In this document: positions 3,722 through 32,499 of the stretch, in pieces
Numbering within the stretch: position 1 is the first letter of the stretch
Layout of the letters: the number at the start of each line of letters is the position of its first letter
IMG/VR virus record: IMGVR_UViG_3300030099_007339
Span: 1-36,145 of that record
Reading direction: 5' to 3' (one strand)
DNA length: 36,145 bases
Source: a virus
Made by a program: the position numbers and the translations under genes
Notes under the pieces: model-generated
The model's database searches: none
Told to the model about the DNA's origin: nothing
The model's input: the letters and a program-made list of their open reading frames with translations, nothing else

Positions 3722-3954
3722 CAGACGATCATGTGTCCTTGACGCATCGCGAAAGACTTATCCAGTACATCGAGGACACTGAATACGACCGTGAGGTACT
3801 ACCTCATTACGGTTTGATCCCTGATTGGTATATTCGGTATAACGAACTCAGGGATCTTATCTGTGCTTTTTTAAACAGTCTCGAGAAGAGCCAGTACGTT
3901 GACGAGGGAGCACTTGAAAATACCCATGAAGGAGTCGTTGACGCCGAGAGCTAA
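3718..3954 (+). CDS. Small hypothetical protein at the end of the rightward operon
   Basis: A 78-residue acidic protein starting at GTG 3718, overlapping the preceding TGA by 4 nt. It is helical (THRERLIQYIEDTEYDREVL; NELRDLICAFLNSLEKS) and aromatic-rich. Its last 84 nt are antisense to the end of the convergent GH130-like gene. No domain recognised. The coupling supports it being real, although the final 28 residues may simply be what the opposite gene allows. Confidence 0.5.
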   Translation: MTDDHVSLTHRERLIQYIEDTEYDREVLPHYGLIPDWYIRYNELRDLICAFLNSLEKSQYVDEGALENTHEGVVDAES

Positions 3955-4962
3955 CTCGATTGTGTCGTCTTCTTCGATGTATTCCCCACCGAAAGGAAGG
4001 ATACAAGCAGGCTGAGTAGATATGGGGCGACCTGTGCAGTCTGTCCACCAAATGAGTTTGTCGTTAGTGGAGCCACTAAAAAGAGCTTCTGTGCATTGTC
4101 TGGTAATTTTTGTAAGACCTTTATCAAGTGTGTAAGCGCCACAGTGATAAAGCAAAAAATTACGCTGTGCTACTGCATCGAAGCACATGTATTTCCAATG
4201 GAAAAACACAAGCCACTCGTCGCCAATGTCAATTGGAGCTGTCGAGTTAAAAGTAGGAGACTCACCTACTACTTTTTTCAGACTGCTTGAGTCAATCGTT
4301 ATATCAGACTGACCCGGAGTCTTGATTACAAGAGGCAGTGTGGAATACAGCAGACGCAGGTGACCCTGATCTGAAAAGAAGCACCAGTTTTTCTCTGGCT
4401 TACCAGCAGTTAAATTTTCGCCTGCAGGAGGATAAACACAGTCAACTACCTCTCCGTATTCGTCAAGACGTCCGACACAAATTTTGGGTTGGTTTACCAG
4501 TGTGTGAGAGGATTTATTCCATTTAGATGCGTAAGAACTCGTGACAAACTGCATGTACAGATCATCGTCAGGCGCTTTAAATAATCGCGAGTCTTCGTAA
4601 CTAAGACGATGTGGATTACTGCGGATTTTACGGGCACCTAATACCGTGTCATAAGACGAAAGTTCACCCACATAAATTTCTGTAGGTGTGTTGTTGTAGT
4701 AGTAATAGCTTTGGTCAGGGTGAAATATGAAAGGCTCTGGTTGGCTACGGAATGTAATAAGCCTATGACCTTCTTTAATAGTTAGACACGGGCTGAAGTT
4801 TGCGATTGCCCCTTCAGGAAGACCCCAGCGAATTCTTGTAAATTCGCCTCCAATATCTTCTGCTTGCTGATAAACAGTGGGGTAGCCATTTTCAGGACGG
4901 ATGTTGACGGGGAGCTCTAAATAACTCAGAGCAGTTTCGTGACGAACATGTTGGATTGTCAT
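3871..4962 (-). CDS. GH130/GH43-like five-bladed beta-propeller carbohydrate enzyme
   Basis: A 363-residue minus-strand protein. Features recalling the GH130 phosphorylase/hydrolase and GT108 mannosyltransferase clan are an early substrate strand (NFSPCLTIKEGHRLITFRS, about 55-73), a YEDSRLF motif at 122-128 matching the 'EDPR' blade, KNWCFF near 191-196, GDEWLVFFH at 247-255, YHCGAYTLD at 272-280, and a closing IELALGVNDSFMGIF matching the family's final 'YGAADT-IG' blade. It probably acts on mannose- or similar hexose-containing glycans, as phosphorylase, hydrolase or transferase. It lies directly downstream of a GT4 glycosyltransferase (4-nt ATGA overlap), so the two form an operon. Its 3' end runs 84 nt into the convergent gene. 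The fold is moderately secure; the reaction is unknown. Confidence 0.6.
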   Translation of the reverse strand: MTIQHVRHETALSYLELPVNIRPENGYPTVYQQAEDIGGEFTRIRWGLPEGAIANFSPCLTIKEGHRLITFRSQPEPFIFHPDQSYYYYNNTPTEIYVGELSSYDTVLGARKIRSNPHRLSYEDSRLFKAPDDDLYMQFVTSSYASKWNKSSHTLVNQPKICVGRLDEYGEVVDCVYPPAGENLTAGKPEKNWCFFSDQGHLRLLYSTLPLVIKTPGQSDITIDSSSLKKVVGESPTFNSTAPIDIGDEWLVFFHWKYMCFDAVAQRNFLLYHCGAYTLDKGLTKITRQCTEALFSGSTNDKLIWWTDCTGRPISTQPACILPFGGEYIEEDDTIELALGVNDSFMGIFKCSLVNVLALLETV

Positions 4963-6128
4963 TCTTCAATCACCTCAATGGCTTTAATAAACCCTTCCGC
5001 AACTTTATCCCAGCGGAAAGAGGGGTTTTGCGTTACCTGAAAACACTTGTTTGCTACTTTTTCACGGTACTCTTCGCTCTCGTAAAGTTTGTTCAGAAGC
5101 TTGGCAGCGTGTTTGTAGTCAACAAGTCCTCGCTCAACACCTAGATCTTTGTCAGTAATCCAAGCTGCTACGTCGATTAATTCAGCACTATCTTTCCAAA
5201 TATCAGCAGAAGAAGTGTGGTTAGGAACTAGTTGGGCCTTTCGTGTTTGGGCATGCTCAAAAGGAACTAATCCCCACCCTTCACCGTCAGCAGTGTTAAT
5301 GCCCACATCAACAGCGTTGTAAATAAAATTTAGATGCTCATCTGGGGGAGCGTGCATGTAATTCATATTCGGAGTAAGCGCAATTTTTGCTGTAGGGTCC
5401 AGTCCTCGACGCTTCATTTCAGTTTCAAACAATTCTTTAATTGACCAACCAAGATCTTTCGCCCCCATATTCAAATACAAAAGCACATCCTCTTTGCCCA
5501 CAGCGAACTCGCAGAACGCTTTGATTGTTTGGTCAATTCGTTTGCGGGGCTGATTTCGATTGCCGTTAAAAACAATAAATTTATCTCTAGGCAGACTTAA
5601 ACGATCTCTTGCCTCATTTTTATCGATTTCAAAAAACTTACCAGTATCCAAACCGTGCGGAATTACGCCAAAACGTTCAGGTTTGATCCCATGCGCCATA
5701 ATGCGCTGAGCTTGTTCAATCGTGAAAGTAATAGCAAAGTCAAAATCAGGAATGTACCTGACCATCGAAAGCGGATACCATTCCGAATCAATAGGAAAGT
5801 AAGCAATGAATTTAAATTTGAGTCTGTCTTTCAAAAGATGAATTCTTTCCCAAACTTGATTTACGATCCAAATATCATTCAAACAAATGACATAATCAGG
5901 TTTTTCGACTTCGACGACTGCCTGTATTCGACCAATTCCAAAACGATCTGCAGGGTTAGCCGCACTGGCAGGGTAAATTTTAAAAGGGTACGTATGAGGG
6001 TCTCCAGTATAGTTTATGCCAAATACAACTACTTCATGCTTTTCATGCAGATGTTCGAGAACGCTATGGGTTACACGACTAAAACCAGTATTTGAAACAG
6101 CATCCCCGTACCAAAGAATCTTTGCCAT
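4959..6128 (-). CDS. GT4-family glycosyltransferase (GT-B fold)
   Basis: A 389-residue protein of normal length for GT4. The N-terminal Rossmann-like domain begins KILWYGDAVSNTGFSRV. The linker carries GVIPHGLDTGKFF at about 154-166, the usual boundary of the two GT-B domains. The donor domain has FIVFNGNRNQPRKRID at about 184-199 and the E-x7-E nucleotide-sugar motif as EGWGLVPFE (E283 and E291). All expected elements are present, so it is probably active and cytoplasmic. Donor and acceptor are not predictable. It is first in a two-gene leftward operon with the GH130-like gene, divergent from terL. Likely roles are host surface glycan remodelling or virion glycosylation (inference). Confidence 0.85.
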   Translation of the reverse strand: MAKILWYGDAVSNTGFSRVTHSVLEHLHEKHEVVVFGINYTGDPHTYPFKIYPASAANPADRFGIGRIQAVVEVEKPDYVICLNDIWIVNQVWERIHLLKDRLKFKFIAYFPIDSEWYPLSMVRYIPDFDFAITFTIEQAQRIMAHGIKPERFGVIPHGLDTGKFFEIDKNEARDRLSLPRDKFIVFNGNRNQPRKRIDQTIKAFCEFAVGKEDVLLYLNMGAKDLGWSIKELFETEMKRRGLDPTAKIALTPNMNYMHAPPDEHLNFIYNAVDVGINTADGEGWGLVPFEHAQTRKAQLVPNHTSSADIWKDSAELIDVAAWITDKDLGVERGLVDYKHAAKLLNKLYESEEYREKVANKCFQVTQNPSFRWDKVAEGFIKAIEVIEE

Positions 6129-9526: not shown

Positions 9527-10339
9527 GTGTTAATCGATTGCTTTCCATATTTCAACGAGAAAGAGCTTCTAGAACTTAGGATCGAGACACTCTACGATCA
9601 TGTAGATGGTTTTTTGATTACCGATGCGAATCATACGCACAGGGGCGAACCTAAAGAATTTACTTGCGTTGATACTCTTAGAGAGCTCGGTATTCCCGAA
9701 GAAAAAGTCCAGGTTCTTCACGTCGAGCTTCCCACATTCGAAGAAGCAGCCGACCCTTGGGTCCGAGAAAGAGGGCAAAGAGATGCCTTGAGTGTCGGAT
9801 TGTTTCAACTGCCAGAAGATACTTTCTTTATATGTTCCGATTGCGATGAGATTGCAAATCCTGAAAAGCTAGAAGAAGTAAAGCAGGCTGTGCTTGATTA
9901 TCCAGGTGAGATTGTGCGCCTCAGCATGTCAATGCACTACGGTAGAGCTGATAAACAACTCCAGTCTCCCACAGGAGAAAAGTTTGATTGGCGTTGCGGC
10001 ACCGCAAGCACAGTCAAACAACTCAAAGATTTTGGCACTTTATCTTCTCTTCGTGCATCTGCCAACAATCACTACGTCGGTAATCGCGACGCAGGTTGGC
10101 ACCTGAGCTGGATGGGGGACGCTGATAAACGAAGGACAAAACTTCGTTCAATTGCTGAATACTACATTTGGGATAAGCCAAAGGTACAGAAGCTGTGTGA
10201 CGAATTTGAGCCAGAAGAAGGCAACACCGACATGCTTGGTCGTGAAGATCATCTACTGACTTCATATCCAGTAGATAAACTTCCAGAAGCAGCCCTTAGA
10301 ATAGAGAGAGTTAAAAATTATCTGCTGCCCAATGGCTGA
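9527..10339 (+). CDS. GT17-like glycosyltransferase
   Basis: A 270-residue protein beginning at GTG 9527; the nearby ATG at 9522 runs into a stop at once. The sequence LIDCFPYFNEKELLELRIETL, DGFLITDANHTHRGEPK, and FFICSDCDEIANPEKLE (about 100-116) is the recognisable GT17 pattern (relatives of MGAT3-type N-acetylglucosaminyltransferases); bacterial and viral members are common. SDCDEI holds the D-x-D metal/donor site, and WHLSWMGD at about 192-199 matches the family's C-terminal acceptor segment. It probably adds a sugar to a surface glycan or virion protein. Its 3' end overlaps the next small gene by 8 nt. Confidence 0.75.
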   Translation: MLIDCFPYFNEKELLELRIETLYDHVDGFLITDANHTHRGEPKEFTCVDTLRELGIPEEKVQVLHVELPTFEEAADPWVRERGQRDALSVGLFQLPEDTFFICSDCDEIANPEKLEEVKQAVLDYPGEIVRLSMSMHYGRADKQLQSPTGEKFDWRCGTASTVKQLKDFGTLSSLRASANNHYVGNRDAGWHLSWMGDADKRRTKLRSIAEYYIWDKPKVQKLCDEFEPEEGNTDMLGREDHLLTSYPVDKLPEAALRIERVKNYLLPNG

Positions 10340-10489: not shown

Positions 10490-12715
10490 ATGACAGCCTC
10501 TACTGAAGTCCGAAATAAGTTTGAGGAGATCTTAGAGGCTGCACGCACTCAAGGTCGCCAAAATCAAGCTGCGACAATGGTGGTGCTTAGCCATCTGCAG
10601 CAGATGACTCTTTTGATGATCAAAAAAGGGTTGTCTTTTTACTGCGACCAAGATACGTACAAGAGTAGGACTAGCTTTTTACACGATGTAATCGAGCTAA
10701 ACCGACTCGATATTCGTTTTCCTGCGATCATTAGAAATTTTTTGATCGACGGTTGTGGACTCTTTTACTTTCGTCCAGATCAAAAACTCAAATATCAAAT
10801 TTATTTTTTCAACAAAAATCAGTATCGGGTTTTTCACGATTTAAATGGTCAGATTGAAGAAGTCGTCATTATTTACGATTACAAAGTTAAAAACGCCACT
10901 CTCGGGTTACCTTCAGATACATACGGGCAGAACAAAAGATATGTTCGATTATCGATCACTGCCGAAACAATTACAGAGATTGAATCGGACTCCGAGCTCA
11001 GCTTCGACGTTGAGCCGGGTGCAGGTATTTCAGGTCAAAAGGTAAGACCTAATTCATTAGGCTTTGTCCCGGCTGTCGAGTGTCTAAACAAACCAAACGC
11101 CAGTGGAACTGACGGAGAAGGAGACTTTGATCCGTTTATGGAGCAGATCGTGCTTCATAACGAAATGATCACCAACATCTCTAAAAATATTGAATTTTTT
11201 GGCAACCCAACGCTTATTTCCAGCCGACCCCGTTCTGACCTTGTCGAAGCGGGTGATGCAGGAAGCACATTTCGTCCAACGATCAGCTCTCAGAGTGGTT
11301 TCGCTGGACGAGACACTCCTTCAACTCGTGTAAGTGAGCCATTTGGTTCATCCATGGGTGGCGGGCTGCGTGTTCCACGCATTATTGCCAACGTTGAACC
11401 TTCTGATCGTGTCGGCTACATGACGCCTGACCCGATAAGTGGGGACATGAATCGGTATGTTCTGCTTTTGAGAGAAGAAATTCGCACAGCCTTGGGCGGT
11501 GTGGATGAAATCTCAATTTCAGCCGGAGCAACCGCAACCGAAATCAAAGGTTTGATGGGCCGTGCTCAGGCTACGGCTCTAAGGAAGAATAAAAGCTTCC
11601 TGACCTATGGTTTTTGTCGTCTCTTGGAGATGATGATTTATCATCAAGAGATGATTTTCCGTGAGTCGTTTATTGCGGCTAGCGGAATGAAAGAGCCAAA
11701 CCTTCCTAAAGAACAAACTGAAGAATCAGTCGAAAGATATCAGAAGGCACTCCGCCGGTTTGATATGAAACTCGACGAAGAGATTAAAAAAGCACTAGAA
11801 AAAAATAAAGTTCCTCGCGGCGTCGTTGGTCTTCCGGAAGACGGCGACCGCAGTGTTTCATATCGTTTTATGGGCGATGTGTATGAGGACACGGCTTTTG
11901 ATTTACAGCAAAAATCAATCGTCGTCCGAAACATGCAAGAGGTTGGTGTTAACAGTGTGGAGGCAATTAAATACCTCTTCCCTGATAAAACTGAAGCAGA
12001 ACGTGCCGAAATGTTGAAAGGCTTTCCATTCCGAATGGTTGGTCAAACACAGTCGGCAATGCAGCAATTCCTGGTATTATTAAATCAGATGTTGCAGTCT
12101 CCGCATCCTCTTGCGCCTGATCAACCTTTAGCGGCTGATCCTAGACTGAATATCACACCGCTCCTTTACAGGACGTTTGATCACCTTGCGGAAGAACTAA
12201 CTTACTCGGGTAGCTATGAGCCAGCAGATCCAAGCTTCGACCCCGAGCCCGGTCTCCCCGGCGGCAGCCCCGGCGGTATCCAGCGACCAGGGCTCGACAA
12301 CCGCCTACCCGCAGTGGGTGGCACAAACAGCTACCCCGGCGGTAGCTTCGGTTCCTACAGCCCAACCGCCACAGCAGGTGGCACCGGCTTCGGACCCTTC
12401 TATCAGCAACCTGTCCAGCCAGTCAACGTCGCAATCCTCCCCGAACAACCCGTGGGAAGCAGCGATGGGGTCCCTGGAGCGGGTTCTGGGCCAATTACCA
12501 ACCCCCAGCCAGGCACCACAGTCTCAGTCGACCCAGCTTCAGCAGCAGGTTACAACACCACTGAGTCAGCCTTCACAGGTCCAGCCATGGGCTTACCAGG
12601 AACAGCAGGCTCCGCAGACCTCCGTTATCAGCGCCTCACCGACCCAAACTTCCTCGCAGGCTTCTACGGACAGCAGCAAGGGTCAACTAAGCGCCGCAAG
12701 TCAAGAGGTAATTAA
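10490..12715 (+). CDS. Portal protein with a long Gly/Pro-rich C-terminal tail
   Basis: A 741-residue protein. Residues 1-570 fit a phage portal (the dodecameric ring at the packaging vertex): an N-terminal helical clip/wing region, a beta-rich segment around 110-200 (YQIYFFNKNQYRVF), LHNEMITNISKNIEFF near 222-237, and the long ATEIKGLMGRAQATALRKNKS helix typical of portal stems. It precedes the scaffold and follows terL. The last about 165 residues are low-complexity, rich in Gly, Pro, Thr and Ser, ending in a basic KRRKSRGN tail. That part is encoded by DNA read in another frame for the scaffold. The tail is longer than most portals need and could be overprinted or disordered. Family assigned from context and stem features. 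Confidence 0.85.
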   Translation: MTASTEVRNKFEEILEAARTQGRQNQAATMVVLSHLQQMTLLMIKKGLSFYCDQDTYKSRTSFLHDVIELNRLDIRFPAIIRNFLIDGCGLFYFRPDQKLKYQIYFFNKNQYRVFHDLNGQIEEVVIIYDYKVKNATLGLPSDTYGQNKRYVRLSITAETITEIESDSELSFDVEPGAGISGQKVRPNSLGFVPAVECLNKPNASGTDGEGDFDPFMEQIVLHNEMITNISKNIEFFGNPTLISSRPRSDLVEAGDAGSTFRPTISSQSGFAGRDTPSTRVSEPFGSSMGGGLRVPRIIANVEPSDRVGYMTPDPISGDMNRYVLLLREEIRTALGGVDEISISAGATATEIKGLMGRAQATALRKNKSFLTYGFCRLLEMMIYHQEMIFRESFIAASGMKEPNLPKEQTEESVERYQKALRRFDMKLDEEIKKALEKNKVPRGVVGLPEDGDRSVSYRFMGDVYEDTAFDLQQKSIVVRNMQEVGVNSVEAIKYLFPDKTEAERAEMLKGFPFRMVGQTQSAMQQFLVLLNQMLQSPHPLAPDQPLAADPRLNITPLLYRTFDHLAEELTYSGSYEPADPSFDPEPGLPGGSPGGIQRPGLDNRLPAVGGTNSYPGGSFGSYSPTATAGGTGFGPFYQQPVQPVNVAILPEQPVGSSDGVPGAGSGPITNPQPGTTVSVDPASAAGYNTTESAFTGPAMGLPGTAGSADLRYQRLTDPNFLAGFYGQQQGSTKRRKSRGN

Positions 12716-22425: not shown

Positions 22426-23037
22426 ATGACAACCACACCGGTAACTCTTCTTTCAAAAAGATCGGGTAATACCTCCGACCGCCCTCTGGATACGACTGTC
22501 CAGGCAGGCGAGCTAGCAATCAATTTTGCTGCTGCAGAGAATGGGCTTTATTTCAAAGACTCTGTTGGAGATATTCGAAAAGTCACAGGTGTTCACTACG
22601 GCACCAATGCACCTAACAGTTCTCCTGCAGGAGCAACAGGCAATTCTGTAGGAGAGCTGTGGCTCGAAGACGGCACTAATAATTTTCTTCGAATTTGGGA
22701 CGGATCTTCATTTATCAAGATTGGTGCTGCGTTTGCTGATGTAGCTGGCACAGCAACTGTTTCAATTGCTTCTGGCGCGATCGTTGCCAACAGCGCCCTT
22801 GTGGCTTCGGGAGCGTTTGGCGCTGTAAGTGCTTCCGGTGCTTTGGGAACTCCAATTGCTTCGGGTGCTCTGCTTGCTTCTGGCGCTTTGGGAACTCCAA
22901 TTGCTTCGGGTCTGGAAGTGCTTACCATAAGCGGTGCCTTTCCTACTGTTCCCGCTTCTGGAGTTTTTGGATACCGCGTAGATCCACCGAGCGGTTTGTA
23001 CCTTTCATTCGGAGGGGGCTGGGTGCCTGTTTCTTAA
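22426..23037 (+). CDS. Short tail-fibre-like protein with tandem repeats
   Basis: A 203-residue protein directly abutting the previous stop. The N-terminus (LLSKRSGNTSDRPLDTTVQ, AGELAINFAAAENGLYFKD) is a common marine-phage fibre opening in which a small beta domain presents the product. Residues 100-165 are repeated ASGA/SGALGTPIASG units. The C-terminus (GLYLSFGGGWVPVS) is beta-rich. It is probably a trimeric fibre or adsorption appendage. A 27-bp perfect repeat underlies the middle of the protein. Confidence 0.65.
   Translation: MTTTPVTLLSKRSGNTSDRPLDTTVQAGELAINFAAAENGLYFKDSVGDIRKVTGVHYGTNAPNSSPAGATGNSVGELWLEDGTNNFLRIWDGSSFIKIGAAFADVAGTATVSIASGAIVANSALVASGAFGAVSASGALGTPIASGALLASGALGTPIASGLEVLTISGAFPTVPASGVFGYRVDPPSGLYLSFGGGWVPVS
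22840..22911 (+). repeat. 27-bp perfect direct repeat (45-bp period) in fibre gene
   Basis: Copies at 22840-22866 and 22885-22911 start GCTTTGGGAACTCCAATTGC and are identical. The 45-bp period equals 15 codons, so copy-number change would keep the frame. Confidence 0.85.
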
Positions 23038-23735: not shown

Positions 23736-24020
23736 TCAAAACGGGCAAGTACCCGTGCTACATGTGCTTTCTTCTACTTTAGCTTCTTGAGTTTCAACAG
23801 ATTCGGTTTGAGCTTGGCTTTTCAAAAATTCTTGGAGTGCGTCCTTGTCGACTCGGAAGAGTGATTTAGCGCCGTTTGGTTGAAGGTTGACGTAGGTGTG
23901 CTTAGGCCAGCCGCCAGGCTGACGTGATTCGGTTAAAGAGATGCGTTTACGAACAAAACCAGCAGAGCAGTTCAGAAGCTCGGCAGTCTGTGCAATTGTG
24001 AGAAGGTTCTGAGACGCCAT
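23736..24020 (-). CDS. Excisionase/MerR-type HTH DNA-binding protein
   Basis: A 94-residue protein from ATG 24020 (a GTG at 24164 would add 48 residues that do not look like a domain). LLTIAQTAELLNCSAGFVRKR at 6-26 is an HTH_17/MerR-like helix-turn-helix as in excisionases, followed by a wing region (GGWPKHTYVNLQPNGAKSLF) and the helix VDKDALQEFLKSQ. The tail is acidic and ends CSTGTCPF. It probably binds DNA and regulates transcription; with no integrase visible, excision is not supported. It is first of a two-gene leftward unit. Confidence 0.65.
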   Translation of the reverse strand: MASQNLLTIAQTAELLNCSAGFVRKRISLTESRQPGGWPKHTYVNLQPNGAKSLFRVDKDALQEFLKSQAQTESVETQEAKVEESTCSTGTCPF

Positions 24021-24102
24021 GCGAATAGAAGTGTTTGTTGACAGCAACAGCAAAAGATTAGCAGGAATATCTGAGTGTGCAGCAGGAAAATCGTTTGTAA
24101 TT

Positions 24103-24130
24103 TTGTCTTTATGTTTGTGACCGTTATGAT
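24103..24130 (+). promoter_or_regulatory. Sigma70-like promoter upstream of the 24158 gene
   Basis: TTGTCT (24103-24108), a 16-nt spacer, and TATGAT (24125-24130) match the bacterial -35/-10 consensus at 4 and 5 of 6 positions. It lies 27 nt before the ATG and could also serve the NblA-like and lysozyme-like genes. Confidence 0.45.
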
Positions 24131-24157
24131 ATATCAAGAAGTTGTTGACGGTATCCA

Positions 24158-24409
24158 ATGGCACGAGTGCGCGTCGCTGGTGAGGTCTTTTCTGGCTACA
24201 ACAAGCCGAAACGAGACGTGCAGAGCGGTAAGGAGTTCTCTGTGGCGGCTAAGGAGGGCGACAAGGTCAAACTCGTAAGGTTTGGAGACCCGAACATGGA
24301 GAACAAGAGCGACAACCCTGAGCGACGAAAGAATTTTCGTGCTCGCCACAATTGTGATGAAAAGAAGTCAAAACTGACACCGGGATACTGGTCATGCAAG
24401 AACTGGTGA
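24158..24409 (+). CDS. Small basic protein, DUF5754-like
   Basis: An 83-residue basic protein. It starts RVRVAGEVFSGYNKPKRD and has EGDKVKLVRFGDPNMENK, then RRKNFRARHNCDEKKSKLTP and ends YWSCKNW. This plan (GYNKPK, GDK-K-RFG, RFRARH, YWSC) resembles a small family I associate with cyanophages and algal viruses (DUF5754-type, from memory). The Cys/His at the end (HNCDE, WSCKNW) could bind metal. Function unknown. It is preceded by the best sigma70-like promoter in the window and followed by the NblA-like gene. Confidence 0.65.
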   Translation: MARVRVAGEVFSGYNKPKRDVQSGKEFSVAAKEGDKVKLVRFGDPNMENKSDNPERRKNFRARHNCDEKKSKLTPGYWSCKNW

Positions 24410-24463: not shown

Positions 24464-24700
24464 ATGCTAGTGATGAATGACTCTGAGTACATCAGTGTTG
24501 GTCTCACTCTCGAAGACGAATTCACTCTCACACGCATCAAAAACGACGCTCACGAACTCAAAGGAAGAGAAAGAGATCAGTACTTATGGAACAGAATCGT
24601 CAGACTTGTGTGCCGGGAGAGGGCTTTTAAGTACGTTGTTGACGAACTTGGAGTCGTTGTAGATCCTAATATAGGAGTGTTCGAAGAAGTAGAAGAGTGA
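24464..24700 (+). CDS. nblA: NblA-like phycobilisome degradation adaptor
   Basis: A 78-residue protein (75 from ATG 24473). LTLEDEFTLTRI at 14-25 matches the NblA signature of a short 'L-x-x-E-x-x-F' helix, and ELKGRERDQYLWNRIVRLVCRERAFKYVV (31-59, read as two pieces) matches its second long helix, spacing included. NblA dimers bridge phycobiliproteins to the ClpC protease and cause antenna breakdown. Phage copies are known in Microcystis phage Ma-LMM01 and reported in marine cyanophages. It would free amino acids or limit photodamage during infection. It has an extra 15-residue acidic tail. The following lysozyme-like gene overlaps its stop (GTGA). Family call is by eye and moderately sure. 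Confidence 0.6.
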   Translation: MLVMNDSEYISVGLTLEDEFTLTRIKNDAHELKGRERDQYLWNRIVRLVCRERAFKYVVDELGVVVDPNIGVFEEVEE

Positions 24701-25521
24701 AAATATCTTCTTTACTTGCTTCTCTTTTACTTGTATTTCCTGCAGCAGCCATGGCTAACACTCTTCCGGTAGAAAAAATCAGAGACCTTGCTGTTCAGGC
24801 AGGTTTTTCTCCGAAGGATGCAGGCACAATGGCTGCCATCTGTAAGTCAGAGTCAGGGGGATTTGCTGGTGCTCATAACAGCAAATATCCTGATGACTCA
24901 TACGGGCTGTGTCAAATCAACATGCTCGATGAGCCAGGTTACATGCTTGGTGCAGAAAGAAGAGAAAAATTCGGGATCGGATCTAATGAAGCTTTGAAAG
25001 ATCCTCTGACCAACCTTAAAGCCGCTAAACAAGTTTTTGACAGCCAAGGTTTTGGAGCGTGGTCAGACTATAAAAACGAAAAGTACCTTAAACACTTACC
25101 AGCTCCTCAAATGCCTGAAACTGAGTACGACGCCACAAGCTCAAACGGAAGCTCGAATCTCGACGAAGCAAAGTCTGGGAGTGAGGAACAAAAAGCACGA
25201 GAAGCTTTGGCGGAAGCTTCAAAAATTTTGCAGAGTGCTATGTCCGGTTCGCAAGCCGCTCAAGCACCCTCACCTGAAGGAGAGACTCCGGTTGACAAAA
25301 CTCCCAAAGAAGAAAAACCGGTAGTCGAACAAAGTGATAAAGCAGAAAGCGACGAGCAGAATAAAAAAGACGCTGAAATCTTGAAAGCTCTGTTCGCTGC
25401 TCAAATGAAACAGCAGCAAGCAGCTTCTGATGCAGCCCTGCTTCAATCTTTTATGGATCGGACAAAATCCGCTGTGGGCAATGCCATGAGCAATTATCAG
25501 ATGGGTAGATCAGTTCTCTGA
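24697..25521 (+). CDS. Secreted lysozyme/transglycosylase-like protein
   Basis: A 274-residue protein from GTG 24697. Residues 1-20 are a signal peptide with an AMA cleavage site. Residues 25-130 form a lysozyme-like/SLT domain: ICKSESGGF holds the probable catalytic Glu52, YGLCQINM (69-76) is the classic 'YGxxQIN' substrate segment, and QVFDSQGFGAWSDY (112-125) is the closing helix. The remaining 145 residues are charged and disordered with a C-terminal Gln-rich helix. It cleaves peptidoglycan, either as endolysin exported by Sec or as a virion-associated entry enzyme. Its start overlaps the NblA-like stop, so the two are probably co-translated. Confidence 0.8.
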   Translation: MKISSLLASLLLVFPAAAMANTLPVEKIRDLAVQAGFSPKDAGTMAAICKSESGGFAGAHNSKYPDDSYGLCQINMLDEPGYMLGAERREKFGIGSNEALKDPLTNLKAAKQVFDSQGFGAWSDYKNEKYLKHLPAPQMPETEYDATSSNGSSNLDEAKSGSEEQKAREALAEASKILQSAMSGSQAAQAPSPEGETPVDKTPKEEKPVVEQSDKAESDEQNKKDAEILKALFAAQMKQQQAASDAALLQSFMDRTKSAVGNAMSNYQMGRSVL

Positions 25522-26448: not shown

Positions 26449-26756
26449 GTCTCGGAAGATCTCCGGTAGAGAAAAAAGCAGATAGCTATGTCTATCGGAG
26501 GTCTACTCACGTCGATAAAAATCCTGCGTTTCGTTTAGCAGGGAAAATATTCAAAGAAAAAGACTATCGAGATGAAAAGGTCAGAAGTGAAAGATCTTCT
26601 CTTATGAAGAGTCGGCCCACTGGTTATGGTTTTGGAAATAAGGACGAGTATGGTCCTGACAATGATTACAGTTCTATAGAGTCACTCAGACGTATACACG
26701 ACCGAGATCACTATATTGTTGGCGGAAATCATGGATTCGCTCCTCCCAGTGTTTGA
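26445..26756 (+). CDS. Hypothetical basic protein, 3' end antisense to the methylase gene
   Basis: A 103-residue protein starting at the ATGA overlap. It is Arg/Lys/Ser/Tyr-rich (LGRSPVEKKADSYVYRRS; AGKIFKEKDYRDEKVRSERS), without hydrophobic core, so probably partly disordered. Its last 71 nt overlap the convergent Dam-like gene. No family recognised. Confidence 0.5.
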   Translation: MSLGRSPVEKKADSYVYRRSTHVDKNPAFRLAGKIFKEKDYRDEKVRSERSSLMKSRPTGYGFGNKDEYGPDNDYSSIESLRRIHDRDHYIVGGNHGFAPPSV

Positions 26757-27264
26757 TTGAGGGGAGATAAAAAACAAAACCAAATACTCTAGAGCTAGGC
26801 ACTGACTCAAATTCGTCAGTGTCTTTTATTAGTTTTGGGTGTTCTTTGAGCACACAAAGAGGTAAATCTATATTCATCTTCTGCGTTGAAATAAGAGCAA
26901 CCTCAGTGGAAGTAAGAAAGACTATGCCTTCATCAAACTCTTGCTTCATCCATTTTTTATAAGCTGTCTCGAGCCAGATTCTCTGATTTGATTTTTTAAA
27001 GTATGTGGCTTTATCAAACAACCTGGTAGATCTAGGTTGTTCGTTTTTCAAAGCTATGTCTCGAGGAGGGTATAGATAAATGTTTTTACCTTTCCAATCT
27101 TGTTTAAGTCCGTTGTCTTTCCAGTTGAAATGCCTTGTGGCCTGAACAATCGTATTCGCTCTTTCATTCGAGGCCGGGTCTAAAAAAATCTCACCCCCTA
27201 AAAATGCTGAAGTTACAGCGATTAAATCAGGAGGTGAGATGTAATCGAATGAGGCAAGTACCAC
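26686..27264 (-). CDS. Phage Dam-family adenine methyltransferase-like protein with altered catalytic motif
   Basis: A 192-residue minus-strand protein from GTG 27264. DYISPPDLIAVTSAFLG, IFLDPASNERANTIVQAT (about 26-43) and DNGLKQDWKGK follow phage N6-adenine methyltransferases (PF05869-type). The catalytic motif expected as NPPY reads IYLYPPRD (62-69): the Asn and the final Tyr are both replaced. The C-terminal half (EGIVFLTSTEVALIS; GFVFYLPS) keeps the methylase beta-strand order. It may have lost catalysis and kept DNA or SAM binding, or use a variant site. It is last in a seven-gene leftward operon and overlaps the convergent gene by 71 nt. Confidence 0.65.
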   Translation of the reverse strand: MVLASFDYISPPDLIAVTSAFLGGEIFLDPASNERANTIVQATRHFNWKDNGLKQDWKGKNIYLYPPRDIALKNEQPRSTRLFDKATYFKKSNQRIWLETAYKKWMKQEFDEGIVFLTSTEVALISTQKMNIDLPLCVLKEHPKLIKDTDEFESVPSSRVFGFVFYLPSIKHWEERIHDFRQQYSDLGRVYV

Positions 27265-31725: not shown

Positions 31726-32499
31726 ATGCCTAGCCAGAAGATATCCCAATTTCCAGCTCAAACGACCGTAGCGTCGGGAGATATTCTGGCGTTAGTGACT
31801 GTTTCAGGCAGCACTTTTGATAACAAACGGATCGGAATTGACGTATTAGATAATAGATATCACGCAACCGCTTCTGGTGGAGCTGCCCTTGAGATTGCTG
31901 TCGAAGCTCTTGCCTCCGGCAATGCTGCTCTAACTGATTCAGCTGAAGCTCTCGCTTCTGGTAACGCTGGTATTTCACTTGCTCTCAATGAGCAAGGCGC
32001 ACTTGCTTCAGGTAATGCTGCTTTAGTCGACGCTGCCGCAGCTCTTGCATCTGGTAATGCTGCAATCGTCGATGCATCGACTGCTCTTGCCTCAGGTAAC
32101 GCAGCCTTAACCGATGTTTCAGGCAAATACGACAAGACTGGTGGTCCGATTACCGGCACCGTAACTATTAGAGATCAGTCTCTTGGTGAAGTTGCTAACC
32201 AAGGTGTTCGTAACGGTACGATTACTTTAGATTTTGGTTCAGCGAACAACTTTGAGTTTGTTCTCGACGGTACTTCTACGCTTGGTGCTCCTACAAATGC
32301 CAGCGGCGGTCAGTGTGGCGCTATCACAATTCGTCAAGACAGCACCGGTTCGAGAACTATGGCTTACAACGCTGTCTTTAATTTTGCTGGTGGGACAGCA
32401 CCGACCTTGACTACTACAGCCAGCGGGGTTGATGTAATTTCGTTTTATGTTTCGTCACCCTCTGAGATTCAAAGCGTCGCTGTTTTAAATCTGTCATGA
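31726..32499 (+). CDS. Fibre protein with 14-residue ALASGNA repeats
   Basis: A 257-residue protein. The N-terminus (SQKISQFPAQTTVASGDILA) is a common phage fibre cap that binds the virion. Residues 61-126 contain five ALASGNA units, mostly 14 residues apart, a period consistent with two heptads of a trimeric coiled coil. Residues 140-257 form a beta domain (GTVTIRDQSLGEVANQG; FEFVLDGTSTLGAPTNASGG; ISFYVSSPSEIQSVAVLN) typical of small phage tail-fibre heads. The stop overlaps the start of the giant adhesin gene (ATGA). Probably part of the receptor-binding apparatus. Confidence 0.7.
   Translation: MPSQKISQFPAQTTVASGDILALVTVSGSTFDNKRIGIDVLDNRYHATASGGAALEIAVEALASGNAALTDSAEALASGNAGISLALNEQGALASGNAALVDAAAALASGNAAIVDASTALASGNAALTDVSGKYDKTGGPITGTVTIRDQSLGEVANQGVRNGTITLDFGSANNFEFVLDGTSTLGAPTNASGGQCGAITIRQDSTGSRTMAYNAVFNFAGGTAPTLTTTASGVDVISFYVSSPSEIQSVAVLNLS
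31906..32103 (+). repeat. Five ALASGNA-encoding repeats
   Basis: Units start at 31906, 31948, 31999, 32041 and 32083: spacing 42, 51, 42 and 42 nt. Codons differ between copies, so the repeat is selected at protein level rather than freshly duplicated. Confidence 0.8.

Follow-up and report, generated by a model that had tools for sequence, protein, structure and literature searches.

A highly diverged, phage-specific NblA-like gene in a cyanophage lineage related to S-EIV1

Within a 36,145-nucleotide viral sequence (positions 1 to 36,145 of IMG/VR record IMGVR_UViG_3300030099_007339, hereafter the window), we identified a small gene, P0001, whose product is, on balance, best read from its sequence as a highly diverged, phage-specific NblA-type adaptor for Clp proteolysis, a second and specialised one that would be used during infection. 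NblA is the host protein that feeds the cyanobacterial light-harvesting antenna to the cell's Clp protease. P0001 is a real and conserved gene with remote homology to NblA; an NblA counterpart occupies its position in the cultured Synechococcus phage S-EIV1, and a second NblA gene is found in most of its long relatives.

A conserved gene in an S-EIV1-like cyanophage lineage

The P0001 open reading frame (ORF) lies at 24464-24700 on the plus strand of the window and comprises 78 codons (translation MLVMNDSEYISVGLTLEDEFTLTRIKNDAHELKGRERDQYLWNRIVRLVCRERAFKYVVDELGVVVDPNIGVFEEVEE), and the LTLEDEF motif, second helix and AFKYVV segment that a sequence-only reading of this DNA had described are all present. 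Since relatives begin (MNxSE...) at the codon matching the ATG at 24476, a product of 74 amino acids is more likely than one of 78; members of the protein family range from 74 to 78. The ORF is a real phage gene under strong selection and not a chance reading frame. A single-sequence scan of IMG/VR with P0001 returned 35 relatives and a scan with the family profile returned 127, of which 80 were retained as loci. When 38 diverse members were aligned, 13 columns were invariant and a further 13 nearly so, and pN/pS against the window was 0.05-0.21 among the 20 matches listed, indicative of purifying selection. A profile scan of 84,980 bacterial and archaeal genomes confirmed no cellular homologue of the P0001 type.

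The gene sits at the same place in the 80 related virus contigs, between two markers that also occur in S-EIV1. To its left, an 83-amino-acid neighbour (24158-24409, plus strand) that matches phrog_7595 strongly and phrog_220, a minor head/DNA pilot family, weakly is present in 79 of the 80 relatives; this pilot-like gene is among the best conserved of the region. To its right, a Dam-like methyltransferase gene on the opposite strand (26686-27264, minus strand) is found downstream in 72 of 80. The immediate downstream neighbour is more variable. In the window it is a lysozyme-like gene of the secreted type (SLT_3; 24697-25521, plus strand) whose GTG start overlaps the P0001 stop in the tetranucleotide GTGA at 24697-24700, an arrangement that had earlier been taken as translational coupling. 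While this overlap is real, it is not a family trait: an SLT_3 lysozyme adjoins the P0001 gene in only 17 of the 80 relatives, and only 11 have a downstream ORF of 80 amino acids or more whose start overlaps the P0001-type gene, so the coupling is confined to a subset of the family.

The window belongs to the S-EIV1-like cyanophage lineage, with which its capsid, portal and terminase genes are shared and identically ordered. Identity to the 79-kb phage S-EIV1 is 69.5% for the major capsid protein, 43% for the portal and 46-52% for the large terminase subunit (TerL), and colinearity between the two extends beyond these genes to others. P0001 is a conserved gene of this lineage of approximately 80-kb cyanophages related to S-EIV1, and it lies in their structural/lysis region. 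The long relatives tested contain no integrase, and their DNA polymerase is unsplit. In the marine lineage of Flores-Uribe 2019, parent lineage of the NblA of Nadel et al., an integrase is reportedly present and the DNA polymerase split, and identity of the present phages with that lineage is unsupported.

Several other features of the window were recorded. An excisionase/HTH_17-like gene (23736-24164, minus strand) is kept in 78 of 80 relatives, although the long ones yielded no integrase. Glycosyltransferase-like genes of the GT4/GT1-like and GT17 types (3871-6128, minus strand, and 9527-10339, plus strand) adjoin the terminase and portal genes, and are possibly for surface glycans or for modification of DNA or the virion. 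Two repetitive, ASG-rich tail-type proteins, with the repeats SGALGTPIASG and ALASGNAAL, are encoded at 22426-23037 and 31726-32499 (plus strand).

Profile evidence for remote homology to NblA

Single-sequence searches with P0001 against Pfam, PHROGs, the PDB and, by tblastn, phages returned nothing useful, and P0001 alone did not match the NblA family PF04485 even at an E value of 10; profiles of the family did find matches. PF04485 was the family matched by most members (24 of 38, best E 5e-4), yet none reached its curated Pfam cut-off of 25 bits, with P0001-type matches in six-frame records scoring 12.9-20.9 bits. Searches of NCBIfam and PHROGs with the 38 members gave weak, scattered matches only. 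The weak Pfam match of P0001 itself was to Imm51 (PF15595; E 0.047, 14 bits; best E of any family member 0.0093), whose cut-off of 29.8 bits was reached by neither P0001 nor its family.

Comparison of the P0001 family with NblA by hhalign gave a full-length match of 47 ungapped columns (P 1.3e-4), and scored 23.9, the highest of 300 column-shuffled controls reaching 18.0. A match to a different set of NblA sequences was of similar significance (P 7.3e-5). In a direct HMM search with the family profile over 10,517 unique ORFs from all the DNA used in this analysis, a set that is not a random draw and whose NblAs are partly redundant, the best 17 non-self matches were all cyanobacterial NblA, the 128 NblAs had a median rank of 66, and the divergent NblAs L205, L218 and L222 fell within the best 25. 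A broader profile (A2) had as its best PDB match the Anabaena NblA structure 1OJH, end to end and ungapped (E 0.44), and the two best matches of profile A1 in 292 cyanobacterial genomes were NblA genes annotated independently by PF04485.

The signal is fragile in six-frame genome searches: there A2 did not place NblA on top and failed to recover NblA genes detected by A1, although the direct HMM search succeeded, which suggests that the first-look filter caused the miss. A search with the NblA profile placed P0001-type ORFs at ranks 29-186, mixed with decoys. A tblastn search of phages with Anabaena NblA returned nothing; this negative is uninformative, since Pfam detects NblA in the freshwater phages Ma-LMM01 and PaV-LD. 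These two phage-borne relatives closely resemble host NblA, with PF04485 scores of 52 and 45 bits, respectively, and the P0001 type scores far lower, at about 13-17 bits. Collectively, the profile data support the P0001 family as a very distant relative of NblA outside formal membership of PF04485. The proposal that P0001 is NblA-like thus holds as remote homology, given the profile ranking, the hhalign P of about 1e-4, the 1OJH match and the S-EIV1 counterpart, but not as a routine NblA, given the sub-threshold Pfam scores and the loss of a basic residue.

An NblA counterpart at the same position in S-EIV1

A search of S-EIV1 with PF04485 finds one NblA match only, AHV82245.1, a protein annotated as hypothetical and encoded at S-EIV1 73902-74222 (L036:28903-29223). 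Its gene lies on the same strand and in the same pilot-to-Dam interval as P0001 in the window, and it has 31 relatives in IMG/VR. The AHV82245.1 family aligns with NblA in the same register as does P0001 (hhalign probability 95.6, P 1e-8), and the single best PDB match of AHV82245.1 is 1OJH. Both proteins have the NblA core and an acidic tail, and AHV82245.1, like most of the P0001 family, is without the basic residue found at NblA position K53; it differs from P0001 in being much closer to NblA and in having its own C-terminal region. As direct comparison relates the two families weakly (hhalign P 0.09), P0001 and AHV82245.1 may be diverged orthologues, or one NblA may have been replaced by another. 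The photosynthesis genes of the S-EIV1 group have been listed as hli and ptoX only (PMC5332604), and the portions of the literature consulted contained no report of NblA in this group.

Conserved and altered positions relative to NblA

AlphaFold2, run with 38 sequences, predicts with moderate confidence (mean pLDDT 70) that the P0001 monomer is a helix-loop-helix as in NblA. The predicted helices comprise residues 16-29 (24509-24550, plus strand; pLDDT 65-90 in this part) and 34-62 (24563-24649, plus strand) and are joined by a short loop. Foldseek searches of the PDB and BFVD with this model, a two-helix monomer at pLDDT 70 and hence a poor query, returned neither NblA nor anything significant (E of at least 3.7), a result that weighs neither for nor against the NblA fold.

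Residues 13-60 (24500-24643, plus strand) align without gaps to NblA 6-53. At the N-terminal end, LTLEDEF (24503-24523, plus strand) is aligned with LSLEQQF of NblA (L7-F13); the L, T, L and E are kept at 98-100% in the P0001 family, and the F position is also kept. Within the second helix, CRERAFK (residues 50-56; 24611-24631, plus strand) is aligned with VREATYQ of NblA (43-49), and C50, R51, E52 and R53, together with W42, form an invariant pattern that is absent from NblA. D60 (24641-24643, plus strand) is aligned with NblA K53. Among 77 unique cyanobacterial sequences, 99% have K or R here; in the P0001 family the basic residue gives way to an acidic or polar one, D or E in approximately 70%, so cargo binding may differ. 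NblA reportedly has two binding motifs, one for ClpC close to the N terminus and one for phycobiliproteins close to the C terminus (PMC4103541). By position on this map, the P0001 family would have preserved the docking end and altered the cargo end.

Beyond the aligned core, the family carries a C-terminal extension of the pattern VD-x-N-x-x-[VI]-F (VDPN/TNxxVF) followed by an acidic tail, represented in the window by GVVVDPNIGVF and its tail (24650-24697, plus strand) and kept across the family. The earlier description of this acidic extension as unusual is apt against NblA; within the family all members have it. A C-terminal part resembling the VDPNI..F extension, VDPSI...F, also occurs, together with LKMEQQFKLRQIED, in an ORF of podovirus S-CBP1 (12072-12125; L287), which has one weak PF04485 match.

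Compared with cyanobacterial NblA (PF04485; 1OJH), the P0001 family therefore shares a size of about 60-80 amino acids, the L-[ST]-L-E-x-x-F start, about 47 ungapped residues, the R-E and aromatic positions of helix 2 and, by prediction, the helix-loop-helix. It differs in falling below the Pfam cut-off, in its invariant TLTR, W and CRERA, in the loss of the basic residue at 53, in its extension and acidic tail, and in being found in phages only (none confirmed in the 84,980 genomes).

These differences bear on what we consider the main rival to an antenna adaptor of the NblA type, namely that P0001 is an NblA-derived adaptor that keeps ClpC docking but whose second helix recruits something other than phycobilisomes, either a protein of the phage or one that serves defence, repair or regulation in the host, with the antenna left to the second NblA described below. 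The kept N-terminal motif, the acidic residues at the K53 position and the invariant W42, C50, R51, E52 and R53 are all consistent with such a change of cargo, as are the clear NblA in the same genomes and the location of P0001 among structural and lysis genes. Nevertheless, we regard it as unlikely: the S-EIV1 NblA at the same place also lacks the basic residue, whose part in antenna binding is presumed, and no particular candidate cargo can be named.

A second NblA gene in long relatives

A second, clearer NblA-like ORF was detected with PF04485 and a second-type profile in 15 of 18 long relatives (L266-L274, L276, L290-L294; G304:53901), including the closest relative, which is 90% identical. 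The three long relatives without it are records of 52-70 kb that may be incomplete. The second gene lies far from the P0001-type gene, on the same strand and roughly 28-32 kb away in most records compared. Close reading of two loci showed it standing alone in a replication region, with the adjoining genes on the opposite strand. None was found in the window, which stops before the expected place. Six of the second-type ORFs are above the Pfam cut-off, and the family matches NblA with an hhalign probability of 97.5 (P 8e-12). The second NblA of this phage group thus resembles P0001 in having an NblA core and a short C-terminal extension, and differs from it in its stronger NblA match and its place in the replication region.

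Since most long relatives carry both genes, P0001 and the second NblA probably divide the work. A rival reading is that P0001 is an inactive or modulating partner that pairs with NblA, either the second phage copy or that of the host, as a heterodimer and thereby tunes or blocks antenna degradation. The co-occurrence in 15 of 18 long relatives fits this idea, and there is precedent in the essential NblA1/NblA2 heterodimer of Synechocystis (title of Baier 2014, as cited in PMC7966870). We nonetheless judge it somewhat less probable than a change of cargo; the two genes are far apart and belong to different modules, and S-EIV1 has only one NblA match.

Discussion

That P0001 is an unrelated two-helix phage protein with a structural, lysis-control or DNA-binding role, whose likeness to NblA arose by convergence, seems improbable: the weak single-sequence scores, rival weak Pfam matches such as Imm51, the want of a Foldseek match and the adjoining structural genes would all suit it, but it leaves unexplained both the specific, register-preserving match to NblA in several independent tests and the NblA that S-EIV1 has at this locus.

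We therefore favour, if modestly, a diverged NblA-type adaptor, and infer its action from that of NblA. P0001 would be a helix-loop-helix protein, expected to dimerise, whose N-terminal LTLE motif would dock host ClpC and whose second helix would present cargo, most likely phycobilisome proteins, that the host Clp protease would then degrade during infection. Its relation to the second NblA would be either that of partners, as for Synechocystis NblA1 and NblA2, or one in which the two differ in cargo or in the time of infection at which they act.

NblA is already known from cyanophages. According to PMC9602691, distant NblA homologues occur in marine and estuarine cyanophages, including the marine NblA of Nadel et al. 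(2019) and that of S-SCSM1, and a viral NblA from a marine metagenome caused Synechococcus elongatus PCC 7942 to lose phycobilins. The P0001 type lies below the reach of single-sequence annotation with Pfam and PHROGs. What is new here is the second NblA in most long relatives, together with the apparent presence of an unannotated NblA in the same interval of the cultured phage S-EIV1.

A bolder reading, which we hold to be doubtful, is that this widespread cyanophage lineage encodes a pair of NblA-type adaptors, of which one serves the antenna and the other, P0001, is retargeted to different cargo with its ClpC docking kept; if true, the virus would use its own dedicated adaptor to reprogram Clp proteolysis in the host. 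If both NblA-type genes work, phages of the S-EIV1-like lineage would dismantle the antenna as a regular step of infection, and the pair poses the concrete question of whether cargo is divided among several Clp adaptors in phages.
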